Assembly (NCBI RefSeq): GCF_000614585.1 | Contig: NZ_BAKX01000001.1 | Coordinates: forward strand, 372,001 to 436,000 | Length of the DNA stretch: 64,000 nucleotides | Direction: 5' to 3' | DNA from: Porphyromonas gingivicanis JCM 15907 | GTDB lineage: Bacteria > Bacteroidota > Bacteroidia > Bacteroidales > Porphyromonadaceae | Shown here: in pieces, positions 7,791 through 49,424 of the stretch | How the letters are laid out: each line of letters begins with the position of its first letter | How positions within the stretch are numbered: the stretch's first letter is position 1 | The notes under the pieces: generated by a model | Database searches by the model: none | What the model was told of the DNA's origin: nothing | The model's input: the letters and a program-made list of their open reading frames with translations, nothing else | Made by a program: the position numbers and the translations under genes

Positions 7791-7865
7791 AAACCTTCTG
7801 GAGAAAAGTATCTGTGCAAACTCTCAAAACCATTAACCCTTTTGATTACAACCATTAACCCTTTG
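7791..7865 (+). repeat. Dispersed intergenic repeat, copy 1 (22-bp period)
   Basis: AACCATTAACCCTTT occurs twice without mismatch, at 7828-7842 and 7850-7864, a period of 22. It is preceded by TCTGTGCAAACTCTCAAAA (7811-7829), which recurs exactly at 19344-19362 upstream of purH, and by AAACCTTCTG (7791-7800), also shared with that copy. Related arrays lie at 27190-27256 and 49341-49424. All are outside genes. Confidence 0.75.
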
Positions 7866-8144
7866 TATAAGACCGTCATTATGTACATACTCCCCCTTTG
7901 CTTCTTGTCTCCTTTTTCAATATACCTTGAGTGCATTACTTGAGGTCATAAAATTGGCTGTGACGAGCTTTTTGTAAGAACTTGTACTATGTTGTAGTTA
8001 TAAGTCTTTGGCAACTAATCTAAAAGAGACGTACACAAGGGGCTTTTCTAAACTTGGGTATTGGTAATTACGCAATGAGTTCAGTAGTATGCAACAGTTA
8101 TATCTTATTCTGAATAATCCAACCATTAAGCAACAAGCTTTTTA

Positions 8145-8192
8145 TACCTTTGCAAAAATAATATCTTAAATTAGCGTACAATATAGCGTACA
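8145..8192 (+). promoter_or_regulatory. valS -7 box and leader with a direct repeat
   Basis: TACCTTTG at 8145-8152 is a full -7 match; no TTTG is present at the -33 distance. The start site would be near 8159, giving a leader of about 40 bases. That leader contains TAGCGTACA twice (8172-8180 and 8184-8192), 12 bases apart, ending eight bases before the ATG at 8200. A role for the repeat is not known. Confidence 0.45.
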
Positions 8193-8199
8193 GAAAAGA

Positions 8200-10817
8200 A
8201 TGGATAACGAAACAGTTTACAATCCCTCCTCGATAGAGAAAAAATGGTATCAATACTGGTTGGACCATAATCTCTTCTCTTCAACCCCCGACAATCGTCC
8301 TCCTTATACTATTGTAATACCTCCTCCTAACGTTACAGGGGTATTGCATATGGGGCATATGCTCAACAATACGATTCAAGATATTCTTGTACGTCGAGCT
8401 CGTCTATTGGGCTACAATGCTTGTTGGGTGCCTGGCACCGACCATGCTTCGATAGCTACGGAGGCAAAAGTGGTAGCCCGTTTGGCAGAGCAGGGTATCT
8501 CTAAAAATTCGCTTTCTCGCGAGGAATTTCTCGAACACGCTTGGCAGTGGACTCGCGAGCATGGAGGTATTATCTTAGAGCAGTTGAAACGTTTGGGAGC
8601 CTCTTGCGACTGGAAACGAACTGCTTTTACGTTGGACGAAGAGCGCTCTAAGGAAGTTGTCAAAGTATTCTGTGAGTTGTTCAATAGTGGTCTCATCTAT
8701 CGTGGCATACGTATTGTCAATTGGGATCCCAAGGCCAAAACCGCTCTCTCGGACGAAGAGGTTATACATCAGGAAGCACAGAGCCATCTGTACTATTTGA
8801 AGTACAATATAGAGGGGAGCGAGCAATTTTTGACCATTGCTACCACTCGTCCAGAGACGATTATGGGAGACACGGCTATCTGTGTACATCCAGAGGATGA
8901 GCGTTACCAAGCGTTCATCGGCAAGAAAGCTATTATTCCTATTGTTGGCAGGGCTATCCCCATTATAGCCGACACGTATATAGATAAGGAGTTCGGAACG
9001 GGCTGTCTTAAAGTAACACCTGCGCATGATGTAAACGACTATTTATTGGGGCAGACACACCAATTAGAAACAATTGATATCCTTAACGACGATGGTACAC
9101 TCAATGAGCTGGGAGGTATTTATGCAGGTATGGATCGCTTCGAGGTTCGCGAAAAGATAACCCAAGACTTGAAGGAAAAAGGTTTGTTGATTAAGGTTGA
9201 AGACTATGTCAATAAAGTAGGATACAGTGAACGTACCCACGTTCCCATCGAACCCAAACTCTCTATGCAATGGTTCCTTAAGATGGAAGACATTGCTCGT
9301 CCAGCCTTAGAAGCGGTAGAGAAAGATGAGATAGCCTTATCCCCTCCAAGTTTAAGAATACCTATCGTCATTGGATGGAGAATGTCAAAGATTGGTGCAT
9401 CAGTAGACAACTTTGGTGGGGACATAGAATACCTGCCTACTATTTGCCCGATGGCTCTTTCGTCGTAGCACCCTCCGAAGAGGAAGCTCTCGAAAAAGCT
9501 CGCTCTTTGAGTGGCAATAGTCAGCTTCAAAAAGAAGATCTTAGGGCAGAAGAGGATTGTTTGGATACGTGGTTCTCCTCTTGGTTGTGGCCAATGAGTG
9601 TGTTTGGTGATATTACTGACTCCGACAATAAGGATTTGAACTACTATTACCCAACCAATACCTTGGTAACAGCACCCGATATTCTTTTCTTTTGGGTAGC
9701 TCGTATGATTATAGCGGGTTATCGCTATAGAGGAGAGCGTCCTTTCAAAGATGTATATCTAACAGGTATCGTGCGTGATGCCTTAGGGCGCAAGATGTCT
9801 AAAACGTTGGGTAACTCTCCCAATCCATTGGATTTAATAGACAATTATGGAGCTGATGGAGTGCGTGTCGGGCTTATGATGGCAACATCGGCAGGTAATG
9901 ACCTGCTCTATGAAGAGGCACTTTTGGAGCAGGGACGTAATTTCTGTAACAAGATATGGAACTCTTTCCGTCTAATCAAAACTTGGCAAGTAGATGCTCA
10001 ACACTCCTCTCCCGAAGAGAGTCGCATAGCTATAGATTGGTTTGCTCATCGCTTGAGTGAAGCTGTTGCCGAGATAGACGACCTGATGGAGAAATACCGC
10101 ATCAGTGAGGCTGTAACAGTGGCTTACAAGTTATTCAGAGACGACTTCTCTGCTTTCTACTTAGAGGCTATCAAACCTGCTTATGGTGCTCCGATAGATG
10201 GTGTTACTTTGGAGAAGACGATTCTCTTCTTTGAAGACCTTTTGCGCATCCTTCATCCTTTCATGCCATTTATTACTGAAGAACTTTGGCATGAATTAAG
10301 AGAGCGTCCAGAGGGTAGTAGTATCATGTATTCTTCTTATCCTCAAAAGATAGAGCTTAATGCAAGTTTGTTGAAGACCGTGGCAATAGCAAGAGAGGTC
10401 ATCACACAGGTGCGTAATATACGTACTATGCACAATATCCCTCGTCAAGAGCTATTGGACATCTACGTACAAGAGATAGAGCATAGTGAGGCAGACTCTC
10501 TCATTATGAAGTTGGCAAGAGCTTCGGTACAGAGAGCTAAGAGTGCGCCCGAAGGAGTATCTTCTGCCTCATTTATCGTGGGGACAGTTTCCTATGCCGT
10601 ACCTATCGAAGCCTTTATAGACAAAGATGCCGTACGTCAGAAACTCGAAGCCGATTTGAAACATCAAGAGGGATTTTTGATGGGAGTACGCAAGAAACTT
10701 TCTAACGAGAAGTTTGTCAACAACGCCCCTCAAGATGTTGTCGCCATAGAGCGAAAGAAAGAGGCAGATGCCCTCTCTCGTATAGAGACCATTAAGAAGC
10801 AACTTAGCACTCTATAA
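8200..10817 (+). CDS. valS: Valyl-tRNA synthetase (one frameshift in this sequence)
   Basis: A class I aminoacyl-tRNA synthetase charging tRNA-Val. The ATP-binding HIGH motif appears as HMGH (50-53) in [14 protein letters not shown], the editing domain follows with [13 protein letters not shown], then [10 protein letters not shown] and the KMSKT loop in [16 protein letters not shown]. The C-terminus has the coiled-coil tRNA-binding arm typical of ValRS. The frame breaks inside the C-rich run at 9341-9350: before it the protein reads ALSPP, after it [17 protein letters not shown], which are contiguous in the family. Adding one C gives a continuous 872-aa protein of normal length. An essential gene of this kind is unlikely to be really broken. 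Confidence 0.95.
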
Positions 10818-10831
10818 GGAGTATAAAAGAT

Positions 10832-11269
10832 ATGGATAAGGATAAGATTCAGCACCTTCTGCGTAAGTTTTTTGTTCATGTAATTGATGCATGCTCAAAG
10901 AGTACGAAGACCTATTACGATTTGATGGTCTCTATCAACTTTGCAGAAGGGCGTATTGTTGTCTCTGACGATGACGACAAGGTCATAGGAGAGGAAGTAA
11001 TTTTCGGATTCATAAGCAATGAAAATAATAAAGGTATAACCTCCGAAGAGGTTATACCCTTGCTTCGCAATCAATTGCATCTGCTTTATACAGACGGCCT
11101 CTTCAATGAAGACTTTATTGGAGAGCCTTTCTCCGTAACTTACGTGACGGACGAGGAGCCAGTAGAACTGCTTTTCGTTTACGAAGATCAATTGCTATTA
11201 GAAAGACCTCTTCTTGAGAATATGGGAGAAGAGTTGGATACTTTCTTCAACAATCTCTTCGCAGAATAA
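10832..11269 (+). CDS. Hypothetical protein, 145 aa
   Basis: This follows valS by 14 bases and is probably co-transcribed. The protein is acidic and soluble, with no signal peptide or membrane segment. The first 20 residues look helical (KIQHLLRKFFVHVIDAC) and the rest alternates like a beta-rich small domain (YDLMVSINFAEGRIVVSDDDD, FSVTYVTDEEPVELLFVYED). I do not recognise a family. The reading frame is intact and of ordinary codon character, so it is likely a real gene of unknown role. Confidence 0.65.
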   Translation: MDKDKIQHLLRKFFVHVIDACSKSTKTYYDLMVSINFAEGRIVVSDDDDKVIGEEVIFGFISNENNKGITSEEVIPLLRNQLHLLYTDGLFNEDFIGEPFSVTYVTDEEPVELLFVYEDQLLLERPLLENMGEELDTFFNNLFAE

Positions 11270-11280
11270 ATTTTAATTAG

Positions 11281-11288
11281 TACCTTTG
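11281..11288 (+). promoter_or_regulatory. -7 box (TACCTTTG) upstream of tRNA-Thr
   Basis: A full TAnnTTTG match 12 bases after the stop of the 145-aa gene and 60 bases before the tRNA. No -33 TTTG was found at the expected distance. It would give the tRNA its own transcript with a short 5' leader to be processed. Confidence 0.45.
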
Positions 11289-11348
11289 CAACCCGAAAGA
11301 CAAGGGCTAAAGCTCTTTTACCTTCGTTCTTTCTTTGATTAGAGGTTT

Positions 11349-11421
11349 GCCGAAATAGCTCAGTTGGTAGAGCAACTCATTCGTAATGAGTAGGTCGCCG
11401 GTTCGAGTCCGGCTCTCGGCT
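11349..11421 (+). tRNA. tRNA-Thr (anticodon CGU)
   Basis: A 73-base cloverleaf. The acceptor is GCCGAAA with TCTCGGC and discriminator T; the D arm is GCTC AGTTGGTA GAGC; the anticodon arm is ACTCA TTCGTAA TGAGT, with anticodon CGT; the T arm is GCCGG TTCGAGT CCGGC. CCA is not encoded. The sixth acceptor pair is A-C, a mismatch, which is unusual but does not prevent recognition. The CGU anticodon reads ACG threonine codons. Confidence 0.95.
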
Positions 11422-11611
11422 CTCTCTGAATCTTTTGTAATCTATTTTGCGAAGCATACATGCCTTAGAGGCTAAAAGGAGAAGTAATAATCTTTTTCTT
11501 TTAGTCTTTCTTAGTTTTTATGCGAAACATAAAAGAACGTCTTGGCTAAGCAACAAACTTCAGAATCGAAGCAAACTATCACTGGGTAGTCTTTTAATAA
11601 TACAAAAAAGA

Positions 11612-11644
11612 AGCTACTAACAGAATTAGCTCCTGTTAGTAGCT
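11612..11644 (-). terminator. Intrinsic terminator after the FadL-like gene
   Basis: AGCTACTAACAG (11612-11623) and CTGTTAGTAGCT (11633-11644) form a perfect 12-bp stem with a 9-base loop. On the minus strand the stem is followed by TTCTTTTTTG, a U-rich tail, so it ends leftward transcripts from the gene stopping at 11676. Confidence 0.8.
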
Positions 11645-11675
11645 CATCAGCTCAGGTTTATTCTATTTCTATCGA

Positions 11676-13322
11676 TTAGAACTTGTAGCCCAATGTGAAA
11701 ATGGTTTTTAATGTGTTTTCACTCAAACGAATACTTTGAGGAGAGGTAAAATCTCCGATAGGGTTACCCTTGCTATCCGATAGAGTTGGAAAACTATAGA
11801 CGTGATTGATAGTTTTTGAATTGACAAACGCTAAGTCGATGTAGAAAGAACGAGACATCCTATAACCAATCCCTCCTGTAAATGTCAAACTGCCCGTAGG
11901 TATCATATAGTGGGGGAGTGTACCTGCGGTTAGAATGGGAGTGGTGTTCTTGTCGAATGAGGTCAGGCCTTGTCCCTTTTTCATAGGAGAGGTAGTAATA
12001 ACGCTTCCTAATCGTAAACTTAAGCGAGATATAGGCTTATATTCAGCTCCTATACGTATGGTTTGAGCTAATCCATAATGTTTTTCTATGGCTTGGTTGT
12101 CTACAGAGAAGTAAGACTCTCCTTGCATATCTCGCAAAGTCATAGTGTTATAGGGAGTAAGTTCGTAGTCTAAACTGATTAGCCCTTGACTGCCGAAAGT
12201 GTAGCCTAAGCCAACAACAAAACGACTAGGAGAAGAGAGACGGTAAGAGCTTGTAGCGTCTTTAGGGGTTTTTCCGTTAAGGATCCACTGATCCTTAGGA
12301 ACTGGTTTGCCTTCGTTATCTAAGGCATGAGAATAGCGAGACTTAGCAGATGCAAAAAATCCATCTTGCAACACCATCCAAGTAGGAGAGAAGTAAGCCA
12401 ATCCTACACGCAATCCGCCTACGGGACGAAGGATGGTTCCTAAGCTAACAGAGAAACCCCCTCCTCTTGTCCATAGTTCATTGCCCAAAATAAGATAGTC
12501 GCCATCCATAAAATCTTCTGCATAACTACTGGCAAGGGCATATTCTATGTCTGTATAACGTAGGGAGAAGCCGAAGTAGTAGCGGTCTCTATGGTTAAAT
12601 CCAAAAGTAAAATCATAAGCCTCTACACTTCCTTTCTCTCTCCAATTTATATGAGCTTCGGAAGGTCCAAAGGGGACATAGTTCCCATTTCTATTAGGGT
12701 AGAAAAACTGTGTTTCGTAGGCTCCCTGCTTATTTTTTTGTGTCCAACCTGCTTCGTACGCCAATATAGATAGCCAAGAATAGTTACTTGATTTGTAAGG
12801 ATCAAAGTTAGTTCTGGGGAGTAAATCTTCTGGTTTAGCCTGATCTGGAGTAATTAGGGCAGCATAATCTGCCAAAGAGAAATCGATAGGCTGTCCACTT
12901 GAAATCTTGAAGCTACGATTGTATCGAGCTAAATTCTGCCGATTAAAACCGAAGGTAAAACCATTGCCCGAATAGCGATCATAATAGGAACCTATTGCTG
13001 AGAAGTTGGGAGATCGAAAGTAGGATGTCTTATGCTTCGAGTTATTGTTGTACCAATTAGCACGATTCATCTGGCTCGTATTATCAAAAGATATTGATAT
13101 TTCAGAGTTCCGATAAACCCCAATACCTGCAGGGTTTTGCGTTACGGAAGAGGGGTCTCCTCCCAGTGAAGCAAAGGCTCCACCCATAGCTTGAAAACGA
13201 GCTGTACCACCTAAGGGAGCAGTATGACTTAAACGAAAAGCATCGGTCTCACTTTGTGCTTTTGCCTGTTGCATTCCCCAACAAGCTGTCGCTAAAACAA
13301 GAGTTGCAATATACTTTCTCAT
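11676..13322 (-). CDS. Outer membrane protein of the FadL/OmpP1 type
   Basis: A 548-aa exported protein with a clean signal peptide (MRKYIATLVLATACWGMQQAKAQ, cleavage after AKA). The N-terminus of the mature part, with GGTARFQAMGGAFASLGGDPSSVTQNPAGIG (about 39-69), is characteristic of Bacteroidota FadL-like channel proteins: MGGAF and the NPAG motif mark the plug region. The remainder alternates in short beta-strand stretches with aromatic girdles and ends in TLGYKF, a terminal outer-membrane strand ending in Phe. It probably passes hydrophobic or small substrates across the outer membrane; the substrate is unknown. It lies 63 bp downstream of the Tyr-rich secreted protein gene, without an obvious promoter between, and has a terminator after it. 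Confidence 0.8.
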   Translation of the reverse strand: MRKYIATLVLATACWGMQQAKAQSETDAFRLSHTAPLGGTARFQAMGGAFASLGGDPSSVTQNPAGIGVYRNSEISISFDNTSQMNRANWYNNNSKHKTSYFRSPNFSAIGSYYDRYSGNGFTFGFNRQNLARYNRSFKISSGQPIDFSLADYAALITPDQAKPEDLLPRTNFDPYKSSNYSWLSILAYEAGWTQKNKQGAYETQFFYPNRNGNYVPFGPSEAHINWREKGSVEAYDFTFGFNHRDRYYFGFSLRYTDIEYALASSYAEDFMDGDYLILGNELWTRGGGFSVSLGTILRPVGGLRVGLAYFSPTWMVLQDGFFASAKSRYSHALDNEGKPVPKDQWILNGKTPKDATSSYRLSSPSRFVVGLGYTFGSQGLISLDYELTPYNTMTLRDMQGESYFSVDNQAIEKHYGLAQTIRIGAEYKPISRLSLRLGSVITTSPMKKGQGLTSFDKNTTPILTAGTLPHYMIPTGSLTFTGGIGYRMSRSFYIDLAFVNSKTINHVYSFPTLSDSKGNPIGDFTSPQSIRLSENTLKTIFTLGYKF

Positions 13323-13385
13323 GATTTTATATTGGTATGTTTCTGTTGTTATTGGTAATGTTATTTATTAAGTTAAGTTATGCTA

Positions 13386-14912
13386 TCAACGTCCTCGACG
13401 ACCTCCGCCAGAGCTATTTCCAGAAGAGGAGCTTCTACCACTGTCATAAGAACCTCGAGATGAAGAGGAGGAACTTCTACTTTCGTAAGAACTACCAGCC
13501 GAAGAGTTACTTCGCCTATTTTCATAAGAGTTGCTGGAGGAACGTCTGCTTGTAGCACCATTGTCGTAACTTCTACTATTATAGCGATTGTTATCGTTGC
13601 GCTCAATAGGTTTTACGGACGAATTGATACGTTGCTGGCTACCACCCCTGTCATAACTACCTCTATCGTAGTCATAGCTTCCTCTATTAGTACGCTCTAC
13701 ACGACGACTGGTAGAACGGTTGTTCGAATTGTCTCTTGGAGAAGTTTCTATACGTTGTGTTTCTCTTTCTGATGAAGGACGAGAGAGGTTTCTGCCCTCA
13801 GAATAATTGCCTCGGTTGCTTCTGTTGTAGACGGAGCTATTACCTCTGTAATCTCTTCTGTTAAAATTCTGGTCATTGTCAGTAACGCGGTTTGCTTCGT
13901 TGCTCCAATATGTACCTCGCTCATAATTGGAGGTGTTGTTTCTTCGTACTATGCTTACATTGTCATTGCTTCTTGCTGAGGAAGAAACATTTCTACTATT
14001 CTGGTTGCGACCTTCATTGTATTCTGCTCCGTAGGAGTCATTACTACGTCTACCTTGCTGATATTTATTGCTACGAGGCTTGTAATGACCTACGTAAGGG
14101 TCATAGTAGCTACCTCCATAACGACCTCCATAGCCGTAGTAACCATCTAAGTAACCTTGGTAGTAGCCGTCATACCAAATATCACGAGGTGTAGGGTAGT
14201 AGCCGAAACTATTCCATCTCCAATTCCACCCTCTATTATACCAATATCTATAACGATGATAGTAGGGAGAGTAGTAGCCATAGTAAGACCAAGGAGTCCA
14301 GTAATCCCACCACGAATCGTACCAAGGATAGAAACTATTCCATCCTCTGCTCCCGTAGTAAGAATTTGTTATTATATAGACATTGATATCTGTATCATCG
14401 TCATAGTAGTATCCATTGTCATAATTACTACCGTAGTACTCATCATCTACATATACTTCCACACGGTCAACCCCTTTGATAACTATTGTGGAAGGATCGT
14501 GAAAACGAGCTATACGATCGGAATAAATGCCTCGATATTTTCTCTGTTTTCTTTTTTTCAAAGCACGCTCTTTAACGATGCTCCGCTCCTTTTTTCGAGA
14601 GGTGTAGCGATCCTGTTTGCCCTTACCTTTATCTCTGCGATTGTAGGAGTCAATCTCATCATCGCTTATTTCATTGCCATCTGTATCGAAGTCCTCGTAT
14701 TCGTAAGCATCTTCGTATCGCTCTCTTTCGAGACGCTGTGCATAGGCTCTTTCTCTTGCCATACGATTCTCTTCAATGGCCTTAGCTCTTGCCTTTTCAG
14801 CCTGCTCTGGAGAGATGTAGATAGCATCGTCAACATCTTCATTCTGTGCCCATCCGCTAACGGAAGTCAACATGCAAAATCCTAAGAGGACTATCAATTT
14901 GTTCCATTTCAT
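13386..14912 (-). CDS. Tyr/Trp-rich, low-complexity secreted protein, 508 aa
   Basis: The function is not recognised. A signal peptide (residues 1-22, ending SGWAQ) is followed by a charged coiled region (about 35-140, rich in E, R, K, D), a short beta-like segment with FHDPSTIVIKGVDRVEVYVDDEYYG (about 147-171), and then a block of roughly 120 residues in which Tyr and Trp dominate (Y-Y-D, W-N, Y-G-G repeats, about 172-300). The last 200 residues are low-complexity Ser/Arg/Asn/Tyr with SRSS-type runs and a C-terminal GGGRRGR. The protein is probably exported and may be structural or surface-bound (inference). The frame is open for 1.5 kb. The long ORFs on the opposite strand are composition shadows. 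Confidence 0.7.
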   Translation of the reverse strand: MKWNKLIVLLGFCMLTSVSGWAQNEDVDDAIYISPEQAEKARAKAIEENRMARERAYAQRLERERYEDAYEYEDFDTDGNEISDDEIDSYNRRDKGKGKQDRYTSRKKERSIVKERALKKRKQRKYRGIYSDRIARFHDPSTIVIKGVDRVEVYVDDEYYGSNYDNGYYYDDDTDINVYIITNSYYGSRGWNSFYPWYDSWWDYWTPWSYYGYYSPYYHRYRYWYNRGWNWRWNSFGYYPTPRDIWYDGYYQGYLDGYYGYGGRYGGSYYDPYVGHYKPRSNKYQQGRRSNDSYGAEYNEGRNQNSRNVSSSARSNDNVSIVRRNNTSNYERGTYWSNEANRVTDNDQNFNRRDYRGNSSVYNRSNRGNYSEGRNLSRPSSERETQRIETSPRDNSNNRSTSRRVERTNRGSYDYDRGSYDRGGSQQRINSSVKPIERNDNNRYNSRSYDNGATSRRSSSNSYENRRSNSSAGSSYESRSSSSSSRGSYDSGRSSSSGNSSGGGRRGR

Positions 14913-15027
14913 AGCTGTACGTATTTAGTTGTGTTGGTTATTTACTTTTTGCTTTTCAGTTGTTAGACCTCTAAAGTAGGGCTATGGTTTAACGTTATCT
15001 ATGGGGAGAAGAAACGCTCTTCTGATC

Positions 15028-15057
15028 CAAATATAATGATTTTTTAGTTCTGTGCAA
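15028..15057 (-). promoter_or_regulatory. Putative promoter of the Tyr-rich secreted protein gene
   Basis: On the minus strand TTG at 15057-15055 is followed after 19 bases by TATATTTG (15035-15028), a full -7 match. It overlaps the end of prmA and would give a leader of about 110 bases before the ATG at 14912. Confidence 0.4.
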
Positions 15058-15922: not shown

Positions 15923-15926
15923 AGTA

Positions 15927-18260: not shown

Positions 18261-18275
18261 ATTGAAATTGGGGGT

Positions 18276-19132
18276 CTAATAATTGTACTGTATAACTTCG
18301 CGAGTCAATATAACCGCTTCTACGGCAGCCCGTACATCGTGTACTCGGAGGATGCTGACCCCTCCTTGCAGTAGAGCTATGGTATGTAGTATGGTGGTGC
18401 CGTTTAGCGCTTCTTCTGGGGTAATGTCCAGCGTTTTCCAAACCATTCTTTTACGAGATACCCCTACGAGTATAGGGAGCTGTAAGGAGGTTAAAGACTG
18501 ATGGGCAAGGGCAAAAAGTCGAAAGTTGTCCGACATAGTTTTAGAAAATCCATATCCGGGGTCAAGGATAATATCTTTCACTCCTAATTTTCTGAGGCGA
18601 TCTGTACGTTCTATAAAATAGTCCAACACCTCCGTTTCTACATTGGGGGTGTAGGTATGTTGGGCGTGCATATGTTCCAAACCTCCTTTTAGGTGCATCA
18701 AAATATAGGGTACTCTTAATTGAGCACTGTAGCAAACATGTTGGCATCTCCTTCACCGCCGCTTATATCATTTATGATAGAGACTCCGTACTCTTCTACT
18801 GCCATGCGAGCAATGGTACTGTGAAAGGTATCTACCGATACAATCAGGTCGGGATACTCATTTCGCAACAAACGCAGAGCTGGTATGAGTCGCTCTTTCT
18901 CCTCAAGCATAGAAGGCTGTTGGCTACCTGGTCGGGTAGAGCATCCTCCAATATCTATCATTGTAGCTCCTTCCGAAATAATTTGTTCTATGCGCTCACG
19001 CATAGCTTGCTCTCCTTGTACTCGGCTGTCGGAATAGAAAGAATCGGGTGTAACATTCATTATCCCCATTACTTGTGGGGTAGAAAGAGAGCAAATCTTT
19101 CCTTTTAGATTGAGAGTTTGTTGTTGCCTCAT
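18276..19132 (-). CDS. folP: Dihydropteroate synthase (one frameshift in this sequence)
   Basis: Condenses p-aminobenzoate with the pterin diphosphate in folate synthesis. The first frame (19132-18716) carries VMGIMNVTPDSFYSDS (about 21-36), ATMIDIGGCSTRPGSQ and SVDTFHS; the second (ending 18276) carries MHLKGG, ILDPGYGFSKT, LVGVSRKRM and RVHDVRAA. Together these are the full set of DHPS motifs in order. The break lies at about 18720-18728: FATV before it and QLRVPYILMHLKGG after it fit if one base is restored, giving 285 aa. Another folate gene, folK, lies at 31355. It is upstream of cdaA in the same unit. Confidence 0.93.
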
Positions 19133-19197: not shown

Positions 19198-19310
19198 CTT
19201 ATTTCGTCCGATATTGCTTCGTTTTTAGATTTCGAATATAGGGGAGTACAAGAGTTTAGAAGAAAGAAAAGAGAAAACGAAAGCTGCCTTCGGAAAGGTA
19301 TATAACGAAC

Positions 19311-19380
19311 TTTCAAAACCCTCTGTGCAAACGTTTGAAACCTTCTGTGCAAACTCTCAAAAGGGTTATACCTTTTGATT
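19311..19380 (+). repeat. Dispersed intergenic repeat, copy 2 (23-bp period)
   Basis: Two adjacent 23-base units (19311-19333 and 19334-19356) share the core CTCTGTGCAAAC / TTCTGTGCAAAC preceded by AAACC. A third, diverged part follows: TCAAAAGGGTTATACC, then TTTTGATT. The 19 bases TCTGTGCAAACTCTCAAAA (19344-19362) are identical to copy 1 at 7811-7829. Confidence 0.75.
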
Positions 19381-27189: not shown

Positions 27190-27256
27190 TTCTAAAAGCT
27201 ATAACCCTTTAGAATGTTTGTATAGATGGTTTTGAAAGTTTACACGGATGGTTTTT
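27190..27256 (-). repeat. Dispersed intergenic repeat, copy 3 (22-bp period)
   Basis: Two adjacent 22-base units lie at 27212-27233 and 27234-27255; on the minus strand they read AAAACCATCTATACAAAC and AAAACCATCCGTGTAAAC plus four more bases each. The flank AAAGGGTTATAGCTTTTAGA, again on the minus strand, matches the AAAAGGGTTATACCTTTTGA flank of copy 2. It sits in the 288-bp gap between rodA and ftsX and points the opposite way to copies 1 and 2. The rest of that gap holds only the ftsX promoter. Confidence 0.7.
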
Positions 27257-27339
27257 CCGCTTAGGTATATACCTTGGGAAGCTATGGATTATTTTAAAGA
27301 GAGATATGCGCCTTTGATAAGGCAGTAGGGCATATTTCA

Positions 27340-35869: not shown

Positions 35870-35884
35870 AAGGTGTGTTGTAAG

Positions 35885-38297: not shown

Positions 38298-38307
38298 ACT
38301 TTATCTG

Positions 38308-39138: not shown

Positions 39139-39159
39139 GTCTATCTTCTTTATTTTGAT

Positions 39160-41417: not shown

Positions 41418-41443
41418 ACTATGTATTAACGTGTCTTTGGTTC

Positions 41444-42445
41444 TTATCGAGAGTTGCGTAGTAGGAGTACATCTCCCTCCTCTGGAACATAGGTTTCTGG
41501 ATCTAATTGGTTTATTCGGTAAAGGTAATCTATACGTATACCATATTTTTGAGCTATGCTGTGCATGGACTCTCCTATATTCACCACATGATCGGGATAT
41601 TCTTCTGTAGCTTGTTTATTCTTTTTTTGTAGATAAACCACATCGCCTTCCTGCAAAGGGAAGTCTAATGGAACATCGTTATACTCTGCTAAAGTTTTAT
41701 GTTTGATATCCATTTCATTGGCTATAGAAGCATAAGAGTCTCCCTCTTGGGCTATTACATAAAGCAAACCATAGCTGATAAATCCTTCATGCTTTACAGT
41801 AGAAACCAATTTCTTATCTTTTTTGATCTTGTTATGTTTATGTTTTTGCGAAGAGGTCTCCTCCATCCAATAAGGATAAGACTCAGAGTCCAATTCATAC
41901 AAACCATATAGCTCAATAAGGGAAATTAGTTTATTGGCATAACCTTTATCAGTAGCATATCCAGCTGTTTGAAGCCCTTTCGCCCATCCCATATAGTCTG
42001 TTTTTTTGAGGCTATACAATCTCTGATAGCGAGGTTGCTTTAAGAAATAAGAGTGATCTCTAAAAGAGTCTAAATCCTCTTCATAAGTGCGGAAGCATTC
42101 ATTAGCTTCATCGTCATCTCTATAAGTACGTCCTCCTTGCCAAGAGCGGTGGCATTTGATACCAAAATGGTTGTTGTGTACAGCCGCAAGCGTACTGCGC
42201 CCGGCATTGGACTCCAATAATCCTTGTGCCATAGTGATGCTGGCGGGTATATCATGAGTCCGCATTTGCTGAATACATTCAAAAGCATATTTACGGATGT
42301 ATTCCTTATAGGCCTCATTCATCTTTTGTGCGCTGGCAGAAGTTGCTACAAATAGCACAATGACTATGTTTATCAATAGTCTTTGTATTATAATGCTACC
42401 TATTTTATTCTTTACCTGCATCATTGACTCAAATAATTCTTCCAA
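41444..42445 (-). CDS. Glucosaminidase-type peptidoglycan hydrolase with LysM domains
   Basis: A 333-aa exported wall hydrolase. The N-terminus has a hydrophobic segment (about 24-40) ending ASAQ, a signal peptide, then a glucosaminidase (FlgJ/Acm-like) domain (about 45-195) with the catalytic Glu in ITMAQGLLESNAGRS and HNNHFGIKC. Two LysM-like modules (about 222-275 and 284-332, YASIANEMDIKHKTLAEYN and HSIAQKYGIRIDYLYRIN) would bind glycan. An internal ATG at codon 8 or 9 could be the true start. It precedes purM by 26 bp and has a promoter upstream. Confidence 0.85.
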   Translation of the reverse strand: MEELFESMMQVKNKIGSIIIQRLLINIVIVLFVATSASAQKMNEAYKEYIRKYAFECIQQMRTHDIPASITMAQGLLESNAGRSTLAAVHNNHFGIKCHRSWQGGRTYRDDDEANECFRTYEEDLDSFRDHSYFLKQPRYQRLYSLKKTDYMGWAKGLQTAGYATDKGYANKLISLIELYGLYELDSESYPYWMEETSSQKHKHNKIKKDKKLVSTVKHEGFISYGLLYVIAQEGDSYASIANEMDIKHKTLAEYNDVPLDFPLQEGDVVYLQKKNKQATEEYPDHVVNIGESMHSIAQKYGIRIDYLYRINQLDPETYVPEEGDVLLLRNSR

Positions 42446-42500
42446 AAGAATCTCTTGGTAAACACTACACCAAGAACCTCTTCACTGGATATATTCTTTG

Positions 42501-42536
42501 CAAATATACAACTATTATAGTAGAGTTTAGATGCAA
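42501..42536 (-). promoter_or_regulatory. Putative promoter of the glucosaminidase-purM-lpx transcript
   Basis: On the minus strand TTG at 42536-42534 and TATATTTG at 42508-42501, a full -7 match, with a 25-base spacer that is longer than usual. The leader would be about 55 bases. No other strong promoter was seen between here and 32124, so this may drive ten kilobases of same-strand genes. Confidence 0.4.
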
Positions 42537-42627
42537 TAGAGATTGACCATCTTCATTTAGAAGTCTGTTAAATGAATCCGTCCAAATCGTTGTATAAAGT
42601 TTATAATCGCTATAGGAATATCTTCGA

Positions 42628-45486
42628 CTAATTCATTCGTTGTTTTAGGAAGCGTGCTGTAGTTGTAAGAGACTTTTGTTTAATCATGTCTTCAGGGGTG
42701 CCTGCAAAAAGTATTTTACCTCCATTACGACCACCTTCGGGTCCCATATCTATAACATAATCAGCACTTTTTATTACATCAAGGTCATGCTCTATAATGA
42801 GGACAGTATTACCTTTATCAACCAATTGCTGAACTAAAGAGAGTAGTACTCTTATGTCTTCAAAGTGTAGTCCCGTGGTGGGTTCATCCAAAATATAGAG
42901 AGTGCGTCCAGTATCTTTTTTTGAGAGTTCTTCTGCTAACTTTACACGTTGACTCTCTCCTCCCGATAGCGTAGTAGAGGGTTGTCCCAGTTTGACGTAT
43001 CCCAAACCGACTTTACGAATCATCTCTAAACGATTATGTAATTTAGGCATGTTTTCGAAGAATTCGGCAGCTTGGTTAAAGGTCATATCCAATACATCTG
43101 CAATAGACTTGCCCTTGTAACGCACCTCTAACGTCTCTCGCGAATAACGCTTACCGTGACACACTTCACAAGGAATGGTAACATCAGGTAAAAAGTTCAT
43201 AGCTAAAGTACGATAGCCATTTCCTTTACACTCTTCACATCGTCCTCCCGATACATTAAAAGAGAAGCGACCCGCTTTATAGCCTCTTGCTTTACTCTCG
43301 GGTAGGGAGACAAAAAGTTGACGAATTTCTGTGAAAAGTCCTGTGTAGGTAGCAGGGTTACTGCGTGGAGTACGTCCCAAGGGAGATTGATCTACAACAG
43401 CTAACTTGTCTATATGCTCTAATCCTTCTATCTTTTTATAAAGCAAAGGAGTAGCTAAAGAACCATACAAAGATTTAGCTATGGCAGGAACGAGAGTTCC
43501 GTTGATAAGAGATGATTTACCACTACCAGAGACCCCAGTAACACATATAAAAGTTCCCAAAGGAAGAGAGAGTTTGACATTTTTGAGATTATTGCCCACA
43601 GCACCCGAAAGAGTTAGAAAATTGCCATTGCCTTGACGTCTTTTGTTGGGTATGATGATATTTCTAATACCATTGAGATAGTCCGCTGTTATGGTATGGG
43701 TTGAAGGCAACTCTTTTGGTGCCCCTGCAAAAACGACCTTCCCGCCCAAACGACCTGCACCAGGCCCCATATCTATAATATAGTCAGCAGATAGCATCAT
43801 ATCTTGGTCGTGTTCTACTACAACAATGGTGTTTTCTCCATCTCTTAGCTTCTGCAATGAGGCAATAAGTTTATTATTATCACTTGGATGCAATCCTATT
43901 CCTGGCTCATCAAGTAGATAGAGCACCTCTACAAGTCCAGTTCCTATCTGTGTCGCTAAACGAATTCTCTGACTTTCTCCTCCAGATAGAGTGGAGGAGG
44001 CCCTTGACAGACTTAAATAGTAGAGACCCACATCAAGTAAAAATTGTAAGCGTGTTTTAATTTCCTTGATAATCTCAGCTCCTACAGGTCGTAAGTGAGG
44101 AGAGAGAGAGTTTTCTATTTCGGGCAATGTTCTATAAAGTTGCTCTAAATCGAGAGCTGCCAGTTCATGAATGCGCCACTTATCGATGAGATAGCTCTGT
44201 GCAATTTTATTCAGTCGAATTCCATTACAAGTTGGACAGATTTGTTCGGTGTGTAAATCTTGAAGCCACTCTTTGGTTTCTTCGTCCAAAAAACCCATAA
44301 AGTTATCAATGTCCAAGTAATACATTATTCCTTTGAAACCCTCTGAATCTTCTCCGTCCAGAACCCCATAAAGAATGGTGTTTAGGACTTTTTCTGAAAG
44401 TAATCCTACGGGTGTGTCGGGAGTGTATCCATACCCTTCTAACAATTGTTTAATGTCGTCATAAATAGCTCCTTTACACCACTTCCCCAGCAGTTTCAAT
44501 CCTCCCTTCCGTAAAGAGAGTTTGGGATGTGTAATGAGCTTGTCTATGTTAATTCTATTGACAACACCCATTCCCCTGCAGTGCGGACAATACCCTTGAG
44601 GAGAATTAAATGAAAATGTAGAGGGAGAGACTTCTGGATAAGCTAATCCATTCTCAGCATCCATTAGCTTAGAAGAGAGGTGCCGTAGTTTACTATCGTT
44701 TCGTTTTCGTACATCCAGCATACCGTCGCCATAGTGAAGAGCAAGAGTTATGCTCTGTTGGAGACGTTCTTTCATTTCGTCCTTTACAATCAATTTGTCT
44801 ATGACAACAGCAATGTAGTGTTTTACATACCTATCGACCATCAACCCCGGACGTAACTCCTCGATAGTTCCATCTATGTAAACAGAGGTAAAGCCTTTTT
44901 TGCGCAAAGTCTCAAAAAGTTCTCTGTAGTGTCCTTTTCTATCTCGAATAACAGGAGCTAATAGCTCTATGCCTTGCAGATTATAATCTCGCTCTATCAG
45001 TTCGAATAGCTCTTGTTCGGTATATTTACGCATCTCTTTTCCCGTGATATAGGAGTGAGGAACCCCGACACGAGCATAGAGAAGCCGCAAGAAGTCGTAA
45101 ATCTCTGTTACTGTTCCTACGGTAGAACGAGTATTGTTAGATGCTGTTTTCTGTTCGATAGCCACAACGGGACTAAGTCCCTCTATCGACTCTACATCGG
45201 GACGAGTATTATTGCCGATAAAGCTCCTTGCATAGGTAGAAAAGGTTTCGATATAACGTCGCTGTCCTTCTGCCAACAGCACATCGAAGACCAGAGAGGA
45301 TTTCCCACTACCACTTAGACCTGTTACAACGGTCAATTTGTGTCGAGGAATAGATACATCTATATTCTTAAGGTTGTGTACCTTGGCTCCACGCACCTCT
45401 ATGGCTCCTGAAGAGAAGAGATTTCTTTCTTCAGACTGTTTTTCTTGTACTATTTCTTTTTTATTCATAGGGCTATATTCGGGCAT
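42628..45486 (-). CDS. uvrA: Excinuclease ABC subunit A
   Basis: A 952-aa damage sensor of nucleotide excision repair. Two ABC ATPase modules are complete: GLSGSGKSSLVFDVL (about 55-69) and GVSGSGKSSLINGTL, signature LSGGESQRIRLA and LSGGESQRVKLA, Walker B YLLDEPGIGLHP and YILDEPTTGLHF. Zinc fingers appear as CPHCRGMG, CPTC and CEECKGNGYR...CEVCHGK. The translation may start at the ATG six codons in (45468). No -7 match was found nearby; an 882-bp non-coding stretch lies upstream. Confidence 0.96.
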   Translation of the reverse strand: MPEYSPMNKKEIVQEKQSEERNLFSSGAIEVRGAKVHNLKNIDVSIPRHKLTVVTGLSGSGKSSLVFDVLLAEGQRRYIETFSTYARSFIGNNTRPDVESIEGLSPVVAIEQKTASNNTRSTVGTVTEIYDFLRLLYARVGVPHSYITGKEMRKYTEQELFELIERDYNLQGIELLAPVIRDRKGHYRELFETLRKKGFTSVYIDGTIEELRPGLMVDRYVKHYIAVVIDKLIVKDEMKERLQQSITLALHYGDGMLDVRKRNDSKLRHLSSKLMDAENGLAYPEVSPSTFSFNSPQGYCPHCRGMGVVNRINIDKLITHPKLSLRKGGLKLLGKWCKGAIYDDIKQLLEGYGYTPDTPVGLLSEKVLNTILYGVLDGEDSEGFKGIMYYLDIDNFMGFLDEETKEWLQDLHTEQICPTCNGIRLNKIAQSYLIDKWRIHELAALDLEQLYRTLPEIENSLSPHLRPVGAEIIKEIKTRLQFLLDVGLYYLSLSRASSTLSGGESQRIRLATQIGTGLVEVLYLLDEPGIGLHPSDNNKLIASLQKLRDGENTIVVVEHDQDMMLSADYIIDMGPGAGRLGGKVVFAGAPKELPSTHTITADYLNGIRNIIIPNKRRQGNGNFLTLSGAVGNNLKNVKLSLPLGTFICVTGVSGSGKSSLINGTLVPAIAKSLYGSLATPLLYKKIEGLEHIDKLAVVDQSPLGRTPRSNPATYTGLFTEIRQLFVSLPESKARGYKAGRFSFNVSGGRCEECKGNGYRTLAMNFLPDVTIPCEVCHGKRYSRETLEVRYKGKSIADVLDMTFNQAAEFFENMPKLHNRLEMIRKVGLGYVKLGQPSTTLSGGESQRVKLAEELSKKDTGRTLYILDEPTTGLHFEDIRVLLSLVQQLVDKGNTVLIIEHDLDVIKSADYVIDMGPEGGRNGGKILFAGTPEDMIKQKSLTTTARFLKQRMN

Positions 45487-45829
45487 TCAAAATTAGAGAT
45501 AGTTGTAGTGTGTGGGGGAGAGTGGATGGATAGAGTCTGTTGGAAATCTCTTTTGTGCCACAAGACACTTTTCTTTTCTCTTCAAAATCAACTTCTGAGA
45601 ATCCCTATCTTTTTAAGTCTCATGAAAACTTACCCAACTTTTCAATAGCTTCCACAACTACGTCGGTCGGGTAAAAGTACAATATTTTCTTCATCCTACT
45701 TTCAGACTTATGCCATAAAATCTATTTGAAATCCTTGCATGATAGCTCGTTTACTGCGCTTCTTTCGTGACTTGGACGTGTTCATATACATTCATAGACG
45801 TGCACAGTTTTCACTCCATACGCCTCCAG

Positions 45830-45921
45830 TTCTTTATATTCAATCTGCGTGTAATTATATTCAATCTACGTATGGATATATTTAATCTTGGTGTAATTAT
45901 ATTCAATCTACGTATAAAGAA
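45830..45921 (+). repeat. Four tandem 21-bp repeats flanked by a 9-bp inverted repeat
   Basis: Units at 45835-45855, 45856-45876, 45877-45897 and 45898-45918, each 21 bases, share TATATTCAATCT (third unit TATATTTAATCT) followed by a variable half ending TAAT, TGGA, TAAT and TAAA. Units 1/3 and 2/4 are more alike in their second halves (GTGTAAT versus ACGTAT), so the array looks like an alternating pair. TTCTTTATA (45830-45838) and TATAAAGAA (45913-45921) form an inverted repeat around it. There are no spacers as in CRISPR. Confidence 0.85.
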
Positions 45922-45930
45922 TTCTACACT

Positions 45931-46077
45931 ATGAAAAAAGAAAGTAGTGGCGTACAAACAGTAAAATATACTCGTGTGTACGAACAAATTAGAGCCTCAA
46001 AAGGAAGGCGAGAGGAGCTATTATGTGAAGGGTTCTATCTGTCTTTTTCCAAAAGGCTTCAGAATAGATTCGTGTAG
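45931..46077 (+). CDS. Possible small protein, 48 aa
   Basis: An ATG ten bases after the repeat array opens a 48-codon frame, MKKESSGVQTVKYTRVYEQI and onward, ending RFV. The product is basic (many K/R) and helical-looking, with no signal peptide. There is no clear ribosome-binding site, though these are weak in this phylum. The frame ends ten bases before the hairpin at 46088. I cannot tell a real small gene from chance. Confidence 0.2.
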   Translation: MKKESSGVQTVKYTRVYEQIRASKGRREELLCEGFYLSFSKRLQNRFV

Positions 46078-46087
46078 GAGAATAAAA

Positions 46088-46122
46088 AACACCTCCTGAT
46101 TCAATACTACTCAGGAGGTGTT
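46088..46122 (-). terminator. Intrinsic terminator downstream of the C10 protease
   Basis: AACACCTCCTGA and TCAGGAGGTGTT form a perfect 12-bp stem with an 11-base loop; on the minus strand it is followed by TTTTATT. It lies about 250 bases after the protease stop at 46369, so the mRNA would have a long 3' untranslated region. On the plus strand only two T residues follow, so rightward termination is less likely. Confidence 0.8.
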
Positions 46123-46368
46123 GGCTATGGGATAGTGTTGTATACTACCTAATTCGATGCATCATTTTCGGCATTCAGCCTCAGTCATATCTTTAATTGT
46201 ATGCTTCCTTCATTTTTCATCTCAATGCCCTCTGATTCATAATTGCTTGCCTCTGCGTAGCCTGTAAACTTGCTCTGCTTTCGTCCTATGTAATCACTAT
46301 GATTACAGCATGCTGCAAGGCCTCATGAAAAACTGGGCAATGGTGTCTTTTGTAAAGAATGAAGTGTA

Positions 46369-49050
46369 CTATTTAATAACCCGCTTTATTAGTTTTTTAT
46401 GATCTGCTGTTTGTATGTGGAATATGTAAGAGCCAGAGGGGAGATTAGAAACATCTATAGTTTCATGGTTATTCAGCCCTTGGAATATGTACTCTTGTAA
46501 CCGAACCCCTTTTATGCTCCATACTTCGATAGCATAGATTTTGCTCAATGCTTGAATTTCAACTCTATCTGCTATCGGGTTAGGGTATATGCTAATCTCA
46601 TTGGCAGAAGTTGTAGGAGTTTCAATGCCAGTAGTATGGTCGGTGTAGTAAGAAACCTTGGTCAGAGGAGTTCCAAACAAGGGTTCACGTTTATCTGCAT
46701 AGCCCACAGGAACTCCCTCTTGTGTTACATAGAGAGTTCTTAGCTTAACTATTCCATCCTTACCTGTTGCTTGCTTGAAACGAGGGTTAAAAGGACCTGT
46801 GCTGAATATAGGTCTGAACTCAACCTTAGTATTAGAAGCAATGGGGTCAGAGTAGTATTCTGAAGAAACAGCCACCAAGCGATCTGTTCCTCCATCTGAC
46901 GCATAGGCTACACCAACTATACCTATTACAATACCATTAGGGAGCATTGCGCTAAATCGAGTGCCCTTGTTTTCAATTTGAAATTTGGGACCTTTTACAT
47001 TGTCATTAGCCAAGTTCATACGTATATCTTCTTCCAAAGGGCTAATGAGAAGTACAGGATCGGTATAAGCAGTAGGTGTTTTTACTTTTTGAAGCATAGC
47101 TACAGAGTTAGCCCATGACACAGTACTACGATCAGATAGATAGATAAAATCTTCTGTGGGTACTTTCAAATCAATATCGGCAAAACGGATGTAAAGATTC
47201 ATCTTTGTGCCTTCTTTTTCATTGATGAAAAAATTATCGAAAGTAAGGGTCGTCTCTTCATTGGGCTTCAGGACGGCTATCTTAGACTCTGCTATGGGGT
47301 CTGCATCTCGAGGCACAAAGGCTGCATTACCCTGATACTTATCTCTTAGACAGTAGAGATAGGCAGGTCCATAGTACTCTCTTGTACTATTGTTTTTGAC
47401 CTTGAAAGATACTTTGCTACGCGCATAGGCAAAGAGGTCGCATGTCGTGCTATTCTTTATAATCTCTATTTTACCAGCACCTATGTCATATGAAACAGAG
47501 GTGAATTTTCCATTCTTAACAGTGAAGTAGAGTTCGGAGGGTTCGTCATAAAATAGTAAGCATTTTTCAAAAGAGCTTGCTCCGTTGTGTTTCCATTCAA
47601 ATCTACCGACATAGTCTCCATCTTCCAACTGTATGCCTTGGCTGGTTACATTCTTGAAATCGCCCTTAAGACTCATCGGATTCCCTCTCGTTAGTTTAAG
47701 GTCAAGAGCCTCTACACCAGAAGCAAGTTGATTGTTTTTGTAGAAGGCAAAGCGCACCTTGCCAAAAGCCTCATAGATAAAGCGTTGATAGAGATAACCA
47801 TGTAGTTTAATGGTCGTTTTGTCTTCTGAAATGACCCCTCTTATAGTCGAGGTTGGTTGCTCCAAGGCTGGAGCTAATCCCGGATTATTATCCCTATCGG
47901 GAATGATGTTAATGATTATAGATTGACCATAATTATAACCTCCGAGTCCCGCACCTGTACCCAATTGAGCTGGGTCTAAAGCTGTGATGCGAAAGTACCC
48001 ATTAGCTATACCAGACCACCCCCAGTTAATATGGAAAAAGCCCTCTTTATTGTAACCATCGCAAACGAAGGCATGACCTCCTCCTTCTCCATACCCCGAG
48101 AGAAGCACTGGGCGTTCGGCATCTAACTCTTCACGAATCAAGTTTTCCCATTCCGTTGCCGTATAGTTATATCGGAAAAGGGTCGTCACGCTCTTTTTGT
48201 ACTTAAAATGTTCCCTAAGTGCTCGCACCACACCTGTTTCAAACGCTCCGCTACCCGAGGCTCCATAAGACATATCAACCCCAAAACCAACATCTTTCAT
48301 AAAGCGAGATAGCTCTTTGGCATGCTTTTCGGCATCGGGATGCGTTTTAGAAAATGTGCCTGGCATATCTGCCCAATTATACTCATGCCCGTATTGCACT
48401 GAACGAGATATGCCGTTATCTGTATAGCTGTGAGAACCGACAGCAGCATTTGGCCACTCGTGAAAACGAAGTATTTGTGCCATTGCAGTAGCTACACAAC
48501 CTGTTGGGCATTGGATATTACCTTCAAAGGGGCATTGTAGATTGTAAGGATACTCTTGGTCCCACAAAATCTTCTTTTTATCCAAAAGGGGAAGTACCTC
48601 TTTAGTTCCTCTTGAAGGAGAAGCTCCGATGGGAACTATTTCAGGTTGGGATAGCATTTGAAGAATACTCTGCTCGTAACCAGCCATCCAATAGCGGATT
48701 TGTTCGGGAGCATTCTCCAAATCAAAATAACCACTATCTGAGTAAGCTAACAGAGGATATAAGCGATCGTCTCCTGCAACAATGGCAAACCCTTCTCGTT
48801 CGCCTCTGTTGAAGATATAGTAGCCTACAAGATTGTTCTCTTGTAAAGCTCCATTTCTGAGTCTATTTTCACCTTTTAGGTAGTGGGTGTAAGTCAAACG
48901 AATGGGAAGATTGCTTCTCAAACCATTTTGAGAAAAATAAATCTTCGCAATTGCTTCCGCCTCAAGAGGCGTAATGGGGGCGGCATTACCTGTTGTTATC
49001 CAACCCATAAGAAGCAATAGAATAGAAAATAAAAGTCTTTTCATATACAT
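46369..49050 (-). CDS. Secreted C10 (streptopain-type) cysteine protease with T9SS C-terminal domain
   Basis: An 893-aa exported protease. I start at the ATG at 49050 because it follows AGGGAGAAA, directly precedes a signal peptide (MKRLLFSILLLLMGWITTGNA) and lies downstream of the promoter; the frame is open to 49155. A SpeB-like propeptide (about 25-155, EGFAIVAGDDRLYPLLAYS) is followed by the catalytic domain with Cys185 in CPTGCVATAMAQIL, His326 in GGGHAFVCDGY and the FHINWGWSG block. Beta-rich middle domains of unknown role lead to a type A sorting domain (ISIYPNPIADRVEIQ to the end), which directs type IX export and surface attachment. Layout resembles PrtT of P. gingivalis and interpain A of Prevotella. 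Substrates are probably host proteins (inference). Confidence 0.92.
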   Translation of the reverse strand: MYMKRLLFSILLLLMGWITTGNAAPITPLEAEAIAKIYFSQNGLRSNLPIRLTYTHYLKGENRLRNGALQENNLVGYYIFNRGEREGFAIVAGDDRLYPLLAYSDSGYFDLENAPEQIRYWMAGYEQSILQMLSQPEIVPIGASPSRGTKEVLPLLDKKKILWDQEYPYNLQCPFEGNIQCPTGCVATAMAQILRFHEWPNAAVGSHSYTDNGISRSVQYGHEYNWADMPGTFSKTHPDAEKHAKELSRFMKDVGFGVDMSYGASGSGAFETGVVRALREHFKYKKSVTTLFRYNYTATEWENLIREELDAERPVLLSGYGEGGGHAFVCDGYNKEGFFHINWGWSGIANGYFRITALDPAQLGTGAGLGGYNYGQSIIINIIPDRDNNPGLAPALEQPTSTIRGVISEDKTTIKLHGYLYQRFIYEAFGKVRFAFYKNNQLASGVEALDLKLTRGNPMSLKGDFKNVTSQGIQLEDGDYVGRFEWKHNGASSFEKCLLFYDEPSELYFTVKNGKFTSVSYDIGAGKIEIIKNSTTCDLFAYARSKVSFKVKNNSTREYYGPAYLYCLRDKYQGNAAFVPRDADPIAESKIAVLKPNEETTLTFDNFFINEKEGTKMNLYIRFADIDLKVPTEDFIYLSDRSTVSWANSVAMLQKVKTPTAYTDPVLLISPLEEDIRMNLANDNVKGPKFQIENKGTRFSAMLPNGIVIGIVGVAYASDGGTDRLVAVSSEYYSDPIASNTKVEFRPIFSTGPFNPRFKQATGKDGIVKLRTLYVTQEGVPVGYADKREPLFGTPLTKVSYYTDHTTGIETPTTSANEISIYPNPIADRVEIQALSKIYAIEVWSIKGVRLQEYIFQGLNNHETIDVSNLPSGSYIFHIQTADHKKLIKRVIK

Positions 49051-49124
49051 TTTCTCCCTATATTTTTTTTGTTTTATTGGTACGATTTTGTTTTTGTTTT
49101 GTGTGAATATAAGATGACTATGTA

Positions 49125-49155
49125 CAAAGATAAGGATATTAGATGTATATATCAA
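49125..49155 (-). promoter_or_regulatory. Promoter of the C10 protease gene
   Basis: On the minus strand TTG at 49155-49153, a 20-base spacer and TATCTTTG at 49132-49125, a full -7 match. The predicted start near 49118 gives a leader of about 68 bases and excludes the upstream in-frame ATG at 49155. Confidence 0.55.
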
Positions 49156-49340
49156 CTACTTCCAAGATAGCATATCTTGTATTTCTTTTCTGTAGATATA
49201 GGTGTTAAGAAAGGAGTATGAAAGTAAATTGGTTTGTATTTCATTTAGATATACTTTTTTAGTACAGATTATAACAAATAAAATTGTTAAAAATAGAAGT
49301 GGGGTATCCTCTCCAACTAATAACTATTTTCAGTATATGT

Positions 49341-49424
49341 CAAAGGTATAATGGGTAGATTCAAAAGGTCTATAGGTTTCATTCAAAACCATTAATCGTT
49401 TTCCTGAAAACCATTATACCTTTG
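49341..49424 (+). repeat. Dispersed intergenic repeat, copy 4, with 14-bp inverted ends
   Basis: CAAAGGTATAATGG (49341-49354) and CCATTATACCTTTG (49411-49424) are perfect inverted repeats. Between them, TTCAAAAGGTCTATAGG, TTCAAAACCATTAATCG and TGAAAACCATTATACC follow each other at about 22-base steps. The CAAAACCATTAA core is shared with copy 1 (7825 onwards). It lies 61 bases upstream of the ftsK -7 box. Confidence 0.7.

Follow-up and report, generated by a model that had tools for sequence, protein, structure and literature searches.

Evenly spaced intergenic arrays of four 22-bp units in a Porphyromonas genome and array-bearing slots shared with a related species

Arrays and genes in the window

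The window, a stretch of 64,000 nucleotides analysed at its full length, corresponds to positions 372001-436000 of contig C35 of the source genome, Porphyromonas gingivicanis JCM 15907 (assembly of 2.05 Mb in 35 contigs, 88.5% complete). It carries four repeat arrays next to genes whose best NCBIfam matches are valS, purH, ftsX and ftsK, in agreement with the neighbours named in the original prediction; the curated cut-off was passed by purH only and valS is split over two frames. All four arrays could be read directly as four units of 22 bp, 88 bp in each case. Four dispersed copies had been predicted, with coordinates that proved right within about 25 bp. Their period had been given as 22-23 bp; it is 22 bp, about two helical turns, with strict phasing. 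The core AAAACCNTYTGTGCAAAC was found five times in the window with at most three mismatches, compared with 0.31 matches expected from shuffled sequence, and the core TCAAAACCATTAACCCTTT four times compared with 0.03. Taken alone, AAAAGGGTTATANCTTTT is weaker (three matches, 0.59 expected; 3 of 100 shuffles equal it).

Each 22-bp unit consists of two inverted, abutting 11-bp half-sites, as learned from seeds. Three half-site types were distinguished in this family, named class I in the following: a (nnAAAACCATT, seed consensus tcaAAACCATT), b (nnAAAAGGnTT, tcAAAAGGtTT) and c (nAGTTTGCACR, gAGTTTGCACG). The array at 7780-7867 (ab' ac' ab' ab', with a weaker fifth unit at 7758-7779) lies in a divergent intergenic region 5' of valS, and that at 19291-19378 (b. 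ac' ac' bb') lies 5' of purH. Between a rodA-like gene and ftsX, the array at 27192-27279 reads bb' ca' ca' bb', the last b being weak. The fourth array, at 49339-49426 (ba' ba' aa' ab', with a weak extra unit at 49427-49448), is flanked by ftsK and by a gene encoding a T9SS sorting domain. None of these arrays is assigned to a strand.

The window furthermore contains an array of four 21-bp units with the unit TTATATTCAATCTRCGTRTAA at 45834-45917, likewise without strand, which had not been listed before. It is the lone window member of a family found in Porphyromonas circumdentaria (class II) and the only class II array scoring at least 25 in 779 kb of the source genome (contigs C33 and C34 and the window).

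A large family with a fixed anatomy

The original prediction of a large genome-wide family was confirmed. A pattern for the type A unit matched the genome 69 times, compared with 3 matches of the reversed-pattern control, and the type B pattern 141 times compared with 1. With a half-site scanner, 60 class I arrays scoring at least 25 were detected, 29 on C33, 27 on C34 and four in the window. At the same score no array was found in three Markov nulls (715 kb) or in reversed C33 and C34. The model was trained on the scanned contigs; hence, the Markov and reversed controls are the real test. In total, 84 arrays were counted in 1.15 Mb of the source genome (C33, C34 and C35), and from the mean gap between them, 13.4 kb, about 150 arrays are estimated for the whole genome.

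The number of units is fixed. In the 60 arrays of C33, C34 and the window, a unit score above 5 was reached at positions 1 to 4 in 57, 59, 60 and 57 cases, and a unit directly outside this frame was present in only 6/60 and 3/60, a contrast sharpened by choosing the frame as the best-scoring four units. The half-sites are combined according to a grammar. Among the 240 units, the pairs ab (96; 77.9 expected from composition) and ac (62; 28.8) exceed expectation, bb (38; 36.4) is close to it, and aa (15; 41.7), bc (6; 26.9) and cc (0; 5.0) fall below; 23 units contain one unassigned half. Half-site c was combined with a in 62 units and never with a second c, and it occupies 2/120 outermost but 29/120 innermost positions (chi-square over positions, p 6e-6). 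Common to the half-sites is a run of A/T, after which two G/C positions usually follow; these read GG in 174, CC in 154, GC in 84 and CG in only 4 of 480 half-sites. The units bb' and aa' are palindromic; the ac'/ca' units (62/240) are not self-complementary. Adjacent units are hardly more alike (11.54/22 identical positions) than units of different arrays (11.20), which together with the copy number of four speaks against a minisatellite formed by slippage.

None of the 84 array midpoints lies within a called gene, which agrees with the intergenic location proposed before and not with an equal frequency inside genes. The gene calls were home-made and cover 74-80% of the bases of the source genome, which makes intergenic regions look longer than they are. 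Over arrays, stretches free of stops have a median of 200 bp and reach at least 300 bp in 14/84, compared with a median of 1005 and 837/837 at coding positions, in support of arrays being non-coding. In other called gaps the median is 336 and 171/319 stretches reach at least 300 bp, which indicates that some genes were missed by the calling. Of the intergenic regions, 416 measure 150 bp or more, and an array is present in 32 of the 73 divergent, 11 of the 53 convergent and 40 of the 290 tandem ones. Divergent regions are favoured. The location upstream of major operons, as originally described, is not general, since convergent regions, which are not expected to carry promoters of the flanking genes, hold arrays as well. 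In the sequences flanking class I arrays, 16 shared 14-mers were noted (raw count, both strands), confined to a few pairs.

The arrays are evenly spaced. For the 81 gaps pooled over three contigs, a median of 11.9 kb, a mean of 13.4 kb and a coefficient of variation (CV) of 0.44 were obtained; no gap is shorter than 4 kb and 11 are shorter than 8 kb. Random draws of intergenic regions, matched in length and in the orientation of the genes, gave a CV of 0.88 (lowest of 4000 draws 0.63), with 15.5 gaps below 4 kb (lowest 5) and 33.4 below 8 kb (lowest 22). By contig, the CV is 0.32 for the 29 arrays of C33 (gaps of 5.7-22.7 kb, median 11.5 kb), 0.53 for the 27 arrays of C34 (4.3-34.3 kb) and 0.41 for the 28 arrays of C35 (6.0-33.6 kb). 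Gaps of 22-34 kb also exist. On the seven contigs examined with the unit patterns only (C26, C28-C32 and C35), 0/50 gaps are below 4 kb, with 10.0 obtained for uniform placement, and the CV is 0.64 compared with 0.93 (P 0.0016); this set includes C35 again and therefore partly overlaps the pooled one.

Arrays in P. circumdentaria and in the wider genus

When the type A pattern was applied to 26 Porphyromonas genomes, 80 matches were found in the source genome, 14 in P. circumdentaria, one in each of two others and none in the rest. The mreC product of P. circumdentaria ATCC 51356 is 88% identical to that of the source genome. In 787 kb of this relative, 21 class I arrays scoring at least 25 were detected, some with altered half-sites. 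In addition, 31 class II arrays of 21-bp units (ATATATKCARNYTGMATATAT) were found there, compared with none in a Markov null; 26 of them have four units, one has three and four have two.

The P. circumdentaria regions orthologous to those of the arrays at 7780-7867 and 49339-49426 each hold a class II array, and the region corresponding to 19291-19378 holds a c-rich class I array of three units with a score of 38. No array is present at the position of 27192-27279, where the aligned gap has 54 bp compared with 184 bp in the source genome.

A sharing of slots above chance was found for both classes. In the source genome, a class I array occupies the orthologous region for 6 of 11 mapped class II arrays, compared with 5 of 78 mapped array-free control regions (Fisher's test, p 2.8e-4). 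The figure for the class I arrays of P. circumdentaria is 4 of 7 (p 1.9e-3), and for both classes combined p is 7.4e-6. These counts refer to the 11/31 class II and 7/21 class I arrays that were mappable to the examined part of the source genome. The mapped gaps may exceed 1 kb; hence, the same slot means the same intergenic gap and not the same base. For the unshared slots (5/11 class II), the nearest class I array lies 2.4-5.8 kb away, about as even spacing alone predicts. Arrays were both gained and lost between the two genomes.

In P. circumdentaria, the spacing of both classes merged is not significantly even by CV (0.66, null 0.77, P 0.135), but short gaps are depleted, with only 3 below 8 kb where 14.1 are expected (at least 6 in each of 4000 draws). 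For class II by itself the CV was 0.51 compared with 0.69 (P 0.04). The original prediction did not extend to the even spacing, the constant four units per array, the combination rules of the half-sites or the second family at orthologous sites.

Periods of 22 bp occur elsewhere in the genus. Self-matches of 6-mers at lag 22 numbered 191 in genome G015 and 124 in genome G025, compared with about 20-50 at most of the remaining lags once those divisible by three are set aside. High counts were also seen at multiples of 22 and, for G025, at 23. In G007 and G009, the lag-22 counts of 49 and 46 did not stand out from the largest other lags (48 and 47), and two weak windows were obtained for each. 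The main unit of G015, CTCTCGGWACTTTT, was matched 169 times, its control 6 times, and no even spacing was seen among the matches listed (CV 1.0). G025 carries 36 matches of the BrickBuilt unit described for P. gingivalis in 500 kb and is thus assigned to P. gingivalis or close kin. It contains several 22-bp families. Of the four that were compared, two are part of longer repeats whose flanks are homologous as well, and for the other two the alignment extends over no more than about 80-110 bp.

Possible role of the arrays and known systems

The original suggestion of a cooperative protein-binding array is compatible with the anatomy, as judged from the sequence. The reading that we favour, with a confidence slightly short of even, is that the arrays are platforms for an oligomeric architectural DNA-binding protein, which mark chromosomal domains and are kept apart by selection. 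In the simplest case four dimers, one per 22-bp inverted pair, would line up along roughly one side of the double helix and bend or wrap about 88 bp. Acting as anchors or as barriers to the diffusion of supercoils, such platforms would delimit chromosomal domains about 12 kb in size, and selection would keep them evenly spaced between genes. The binding protein, its oligomeric state, the bending of the DNA and the role at domain boundaries are putative; the sharing of slots by different arrays in related species suggests a chromosome-organising role. An Lrp octamer was considered as binder and rejected. The Lrp/AsnC family (PF01037, AsnC_trans_reg), found in 19/26 genomes of Porphyromonas, was detected neither in the source genome (88.5% complete) nor in P. 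circumdentaria (98%). Several observations count against the platform reading: the gaps of 22-34 kb in the source genome, the merged CV of P. circumdentaria that is not significantly low, the excess of similar class I pairs, which could stem from copying, the class II flanks, which would suit a mobile element, the absence of even spacing among the matches listed for G015, and the good RNA folding of one of the four window arrays.

The main rival is a mobile, MITE-like element with target immunity, which we consider rather unlikely. An array would block insertion nearby, the resulting exclusion zone would lead to even spacing near saturation, and selection would confine the elements to large intergenic regions. 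A mobile element had also been named originally as an alternative to protein binding. In part this idea fits the data: the class II flanks in P. circumdentaria are conserved and symmetric, resembling terminal inverted repeats, two of the four compared families of G025 are embedded in longer repeats with homologous flanks, and arrays came and went between the source genome and P. circumdentaria. Similar class I pairs are also more frequent than in the null (38 compared with 14 at 58/88 or more identical positions, highest of 20 shuffles 20; 24 compared with 5.7 at 60/88 or more, highest 10), so that some copying is possible. The class I arrays themselves, however, show no conservation within 60 bp outside 60 arrays (120 flanks), and their mean pairwise identity is only 43.3/88 compared with 42.2 in the null. 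Two families would moreover have had to choose the same slots independently (6/11 compared with 5/78). The similar class I pairs and the class II flanks lend this explanation some probability.

Slippage, a regulon and RNA structure are hard to reconcile with the fixed number of units, their phase and grammar, the even intergenic spacing and the shared slots. If the arrays were operators of one transcription regulator, which binds cooperatively at four sites and controls the flanking genes, the preference for divergent regions and the anatomy would be accounted for. It seems improbable, as a regulon is not expected to be evenly spaced, 11 of the array-bearing regions are convergent, about 150 arrays are estimated genome-wide and the housekeeping genes next to the window arrays are unrelated to one another. 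Elements acting in transcripts, such as tandem terminators or processing hairpins, are very improbable. The palindromic bb' and aa' units would suit them, and the folding of 49339-49426 is far better than that of shuffled sequences (z -5.32), that of 19291-19378 moderately so (z -1.75; 9/200 shuffles equal it). For the remaining two arrays of the window the folding does not surpass that of shuffled sequences (z 0.20 and 0.85), the ac'/ca' units lack self-complementarity, and at the gathering threshold no Rfam family matched a window array, the sole match in the window being a tRNA at 11349-11421.

The platform reading can be extended to the genus. It is possible, although we lean towards doubt, that Porphyromonas chromosomes are divided into domains of similar size, about 12-15 kb, by four-site platforms whose slots are conserved between species, while the platform sequence, presumably together with the specificity of its binder, is exchanged as a whole. 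The source genome would then use 22-bp class I, P. circumdentaria mostly 21-bp class II, and other members of the genus perhaps further 22-bp families. If true, this would be a bacterial domain-marking system with positions that outlive sequences. If the arrays are mobile elements with immunity instead, the regular distances between them would document that immunity with unusual clarity.

Site families of nucleoid proteins, such as matS and the Noc and SlmA sites, are palindromic, occur chromosome-wide and organise or mark the chromosome, which the arrays may do as well. Their sites occur singly and are either enriched in or missing from certain regions, and differ in this from evenly spaced arrays of four. 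CRISPR arrays likewise consist of short regular repeats. The units described here abut at 22 bp, vary and have no unique spacers between them; thus, they are not CRISPR arrays. A separate CRISPR-like array is present in the source genome (locus L019).

A literature search for Porphyromonas 22-bp tandem repeats and for evenly spaced nucleoid sites in Bacteroidetes returned nothing on either, a text search for six unit sequences of G025 and G015 gave no occurrence, and the available portions of papers on regularly spaced repeats and the nucleoid did not visibly deal with such arrays. In one paper, short repeats of 3 to 31 bp were left unannotated by its authors (PMC5771137). BrickBuilt of P. gingivalis is an intergenic element with a 23-nt tandem unit, AGAYCATARTATCCTCTCRTRTG, and 19 copies in ATCC 33277 (Klein et al. 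2015; PMC4596501). The copies have 1 to 22.8 repeats, and a leader and/or tail with IS5-like terminal repeats accompanies 16/19, both being absent from 3/19 (PMC4596501). Class I arrays belong to the same genus and are likewise intergenic and dispersed with a short tandem unit, but this unit is unrelated in sequence and has 22 bp instead of 23 nt, its number is four, and no conserved flank such as a leader or tail is present; an identity with BrickBuilt is thereby ruled out. The 22-nt tandem repeats mentioned for P. gingivalis W83 (Nelson et al. 2003, cited in PMC4596501) agree with the arrays in genus and in period, the period being the only feature compared.

According to a review, the identities of supercoil barriers are still to be established, domains range from 10 to 400 kb and random placement of barriers is commonly observed (PMC6907758). 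With candidate sites, about 150 by estimate, that are evenly spaced and defined by sequence in one small genome, the question of supercoil domain boundaries would become directly testable, the more so as many of these slots carry a different sequence in a related species.

The nearest functional analogy to the arrays may be the BIMEs of E. coli, compared here by anatomy and location. BIME/REP elements have REP sequences of known superfamilies and an associated RAYT transposase, and BIMEs prefer the 3' ends of operons. BIMEs are intergenic and numerous mosaics, in which short palindromic units alternate in orientation (PMC2817692), REPs being palindromes of 20-40 bp (PMC3733652). Class I arrays are likewise intergenic, numerous and of mosaic composition. 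Class I arrays differ by units of 22 bp, many of which (ac'/ca', 62/240) are not palindromic, by four units per element, by even spacing and by a preference for divergent regions. In E. coli, a BIME impedes the diffusion of supercoils, and about 600 BIMEs were proposed as possible domain barriers (PMC6907758).

Interrupted frames and called coding density

In the window, valS (8200-10817) is read in two overlapping frames, which cover model positions 2-379 and 388-860 of 860. This split of an essential gene looks like a frameshift or an assembly error. The dihydropteroate synthase frame on the minus strand (18716-19132) matches model positions 1-115 of 258 only, and is followed by further minus-strand frames. 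As called, the coding density of the source genome is low (74-80%), for which assembly indels may be a partial cause. At locus L020 (G000:C21) of the same genome, an array at 1455-1564 shares sequence with codons near the beginning of an ORF of 174 aa. The start of this ORF resembles a signal peptide and repeats lie inside it; the ORF may be spurious.

Distribution of Lrp/AsnC

Lrp/AsnC, considered as binder of the arrays, was detected by PF01037 in 19 of 26 genomes of the genus. No match was obtained for P. gingivicanis JCM 15907 and P. circumdentaria, both carrying class I arrays, or for five further genomes among those searched.

Unit-like matches and further repeats

In a CRISPR-like array of the source genome (L019, G000:C18:476-492), one spacer contains a single unit-like match. 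This match is possibly due to chance, since the reversed pattern, used as control, also matched three times across the genome. The half-site scanner detected no array at L019.

Two short, weak 22-bp windows were found in another Porphyromonas genome (L115-L119, G009:C9 70001-170000) at joined positions 56758 and 90696, one of them with AGTCGACT palindromes. P. circumdentaria carries a 21-bp array with a different unit (ACCTATGTATGGRCATACGCA), terminating in AAATAAAGAAA (L151, G024:C23:28296-28423). It is perhaps a third array family in this species.
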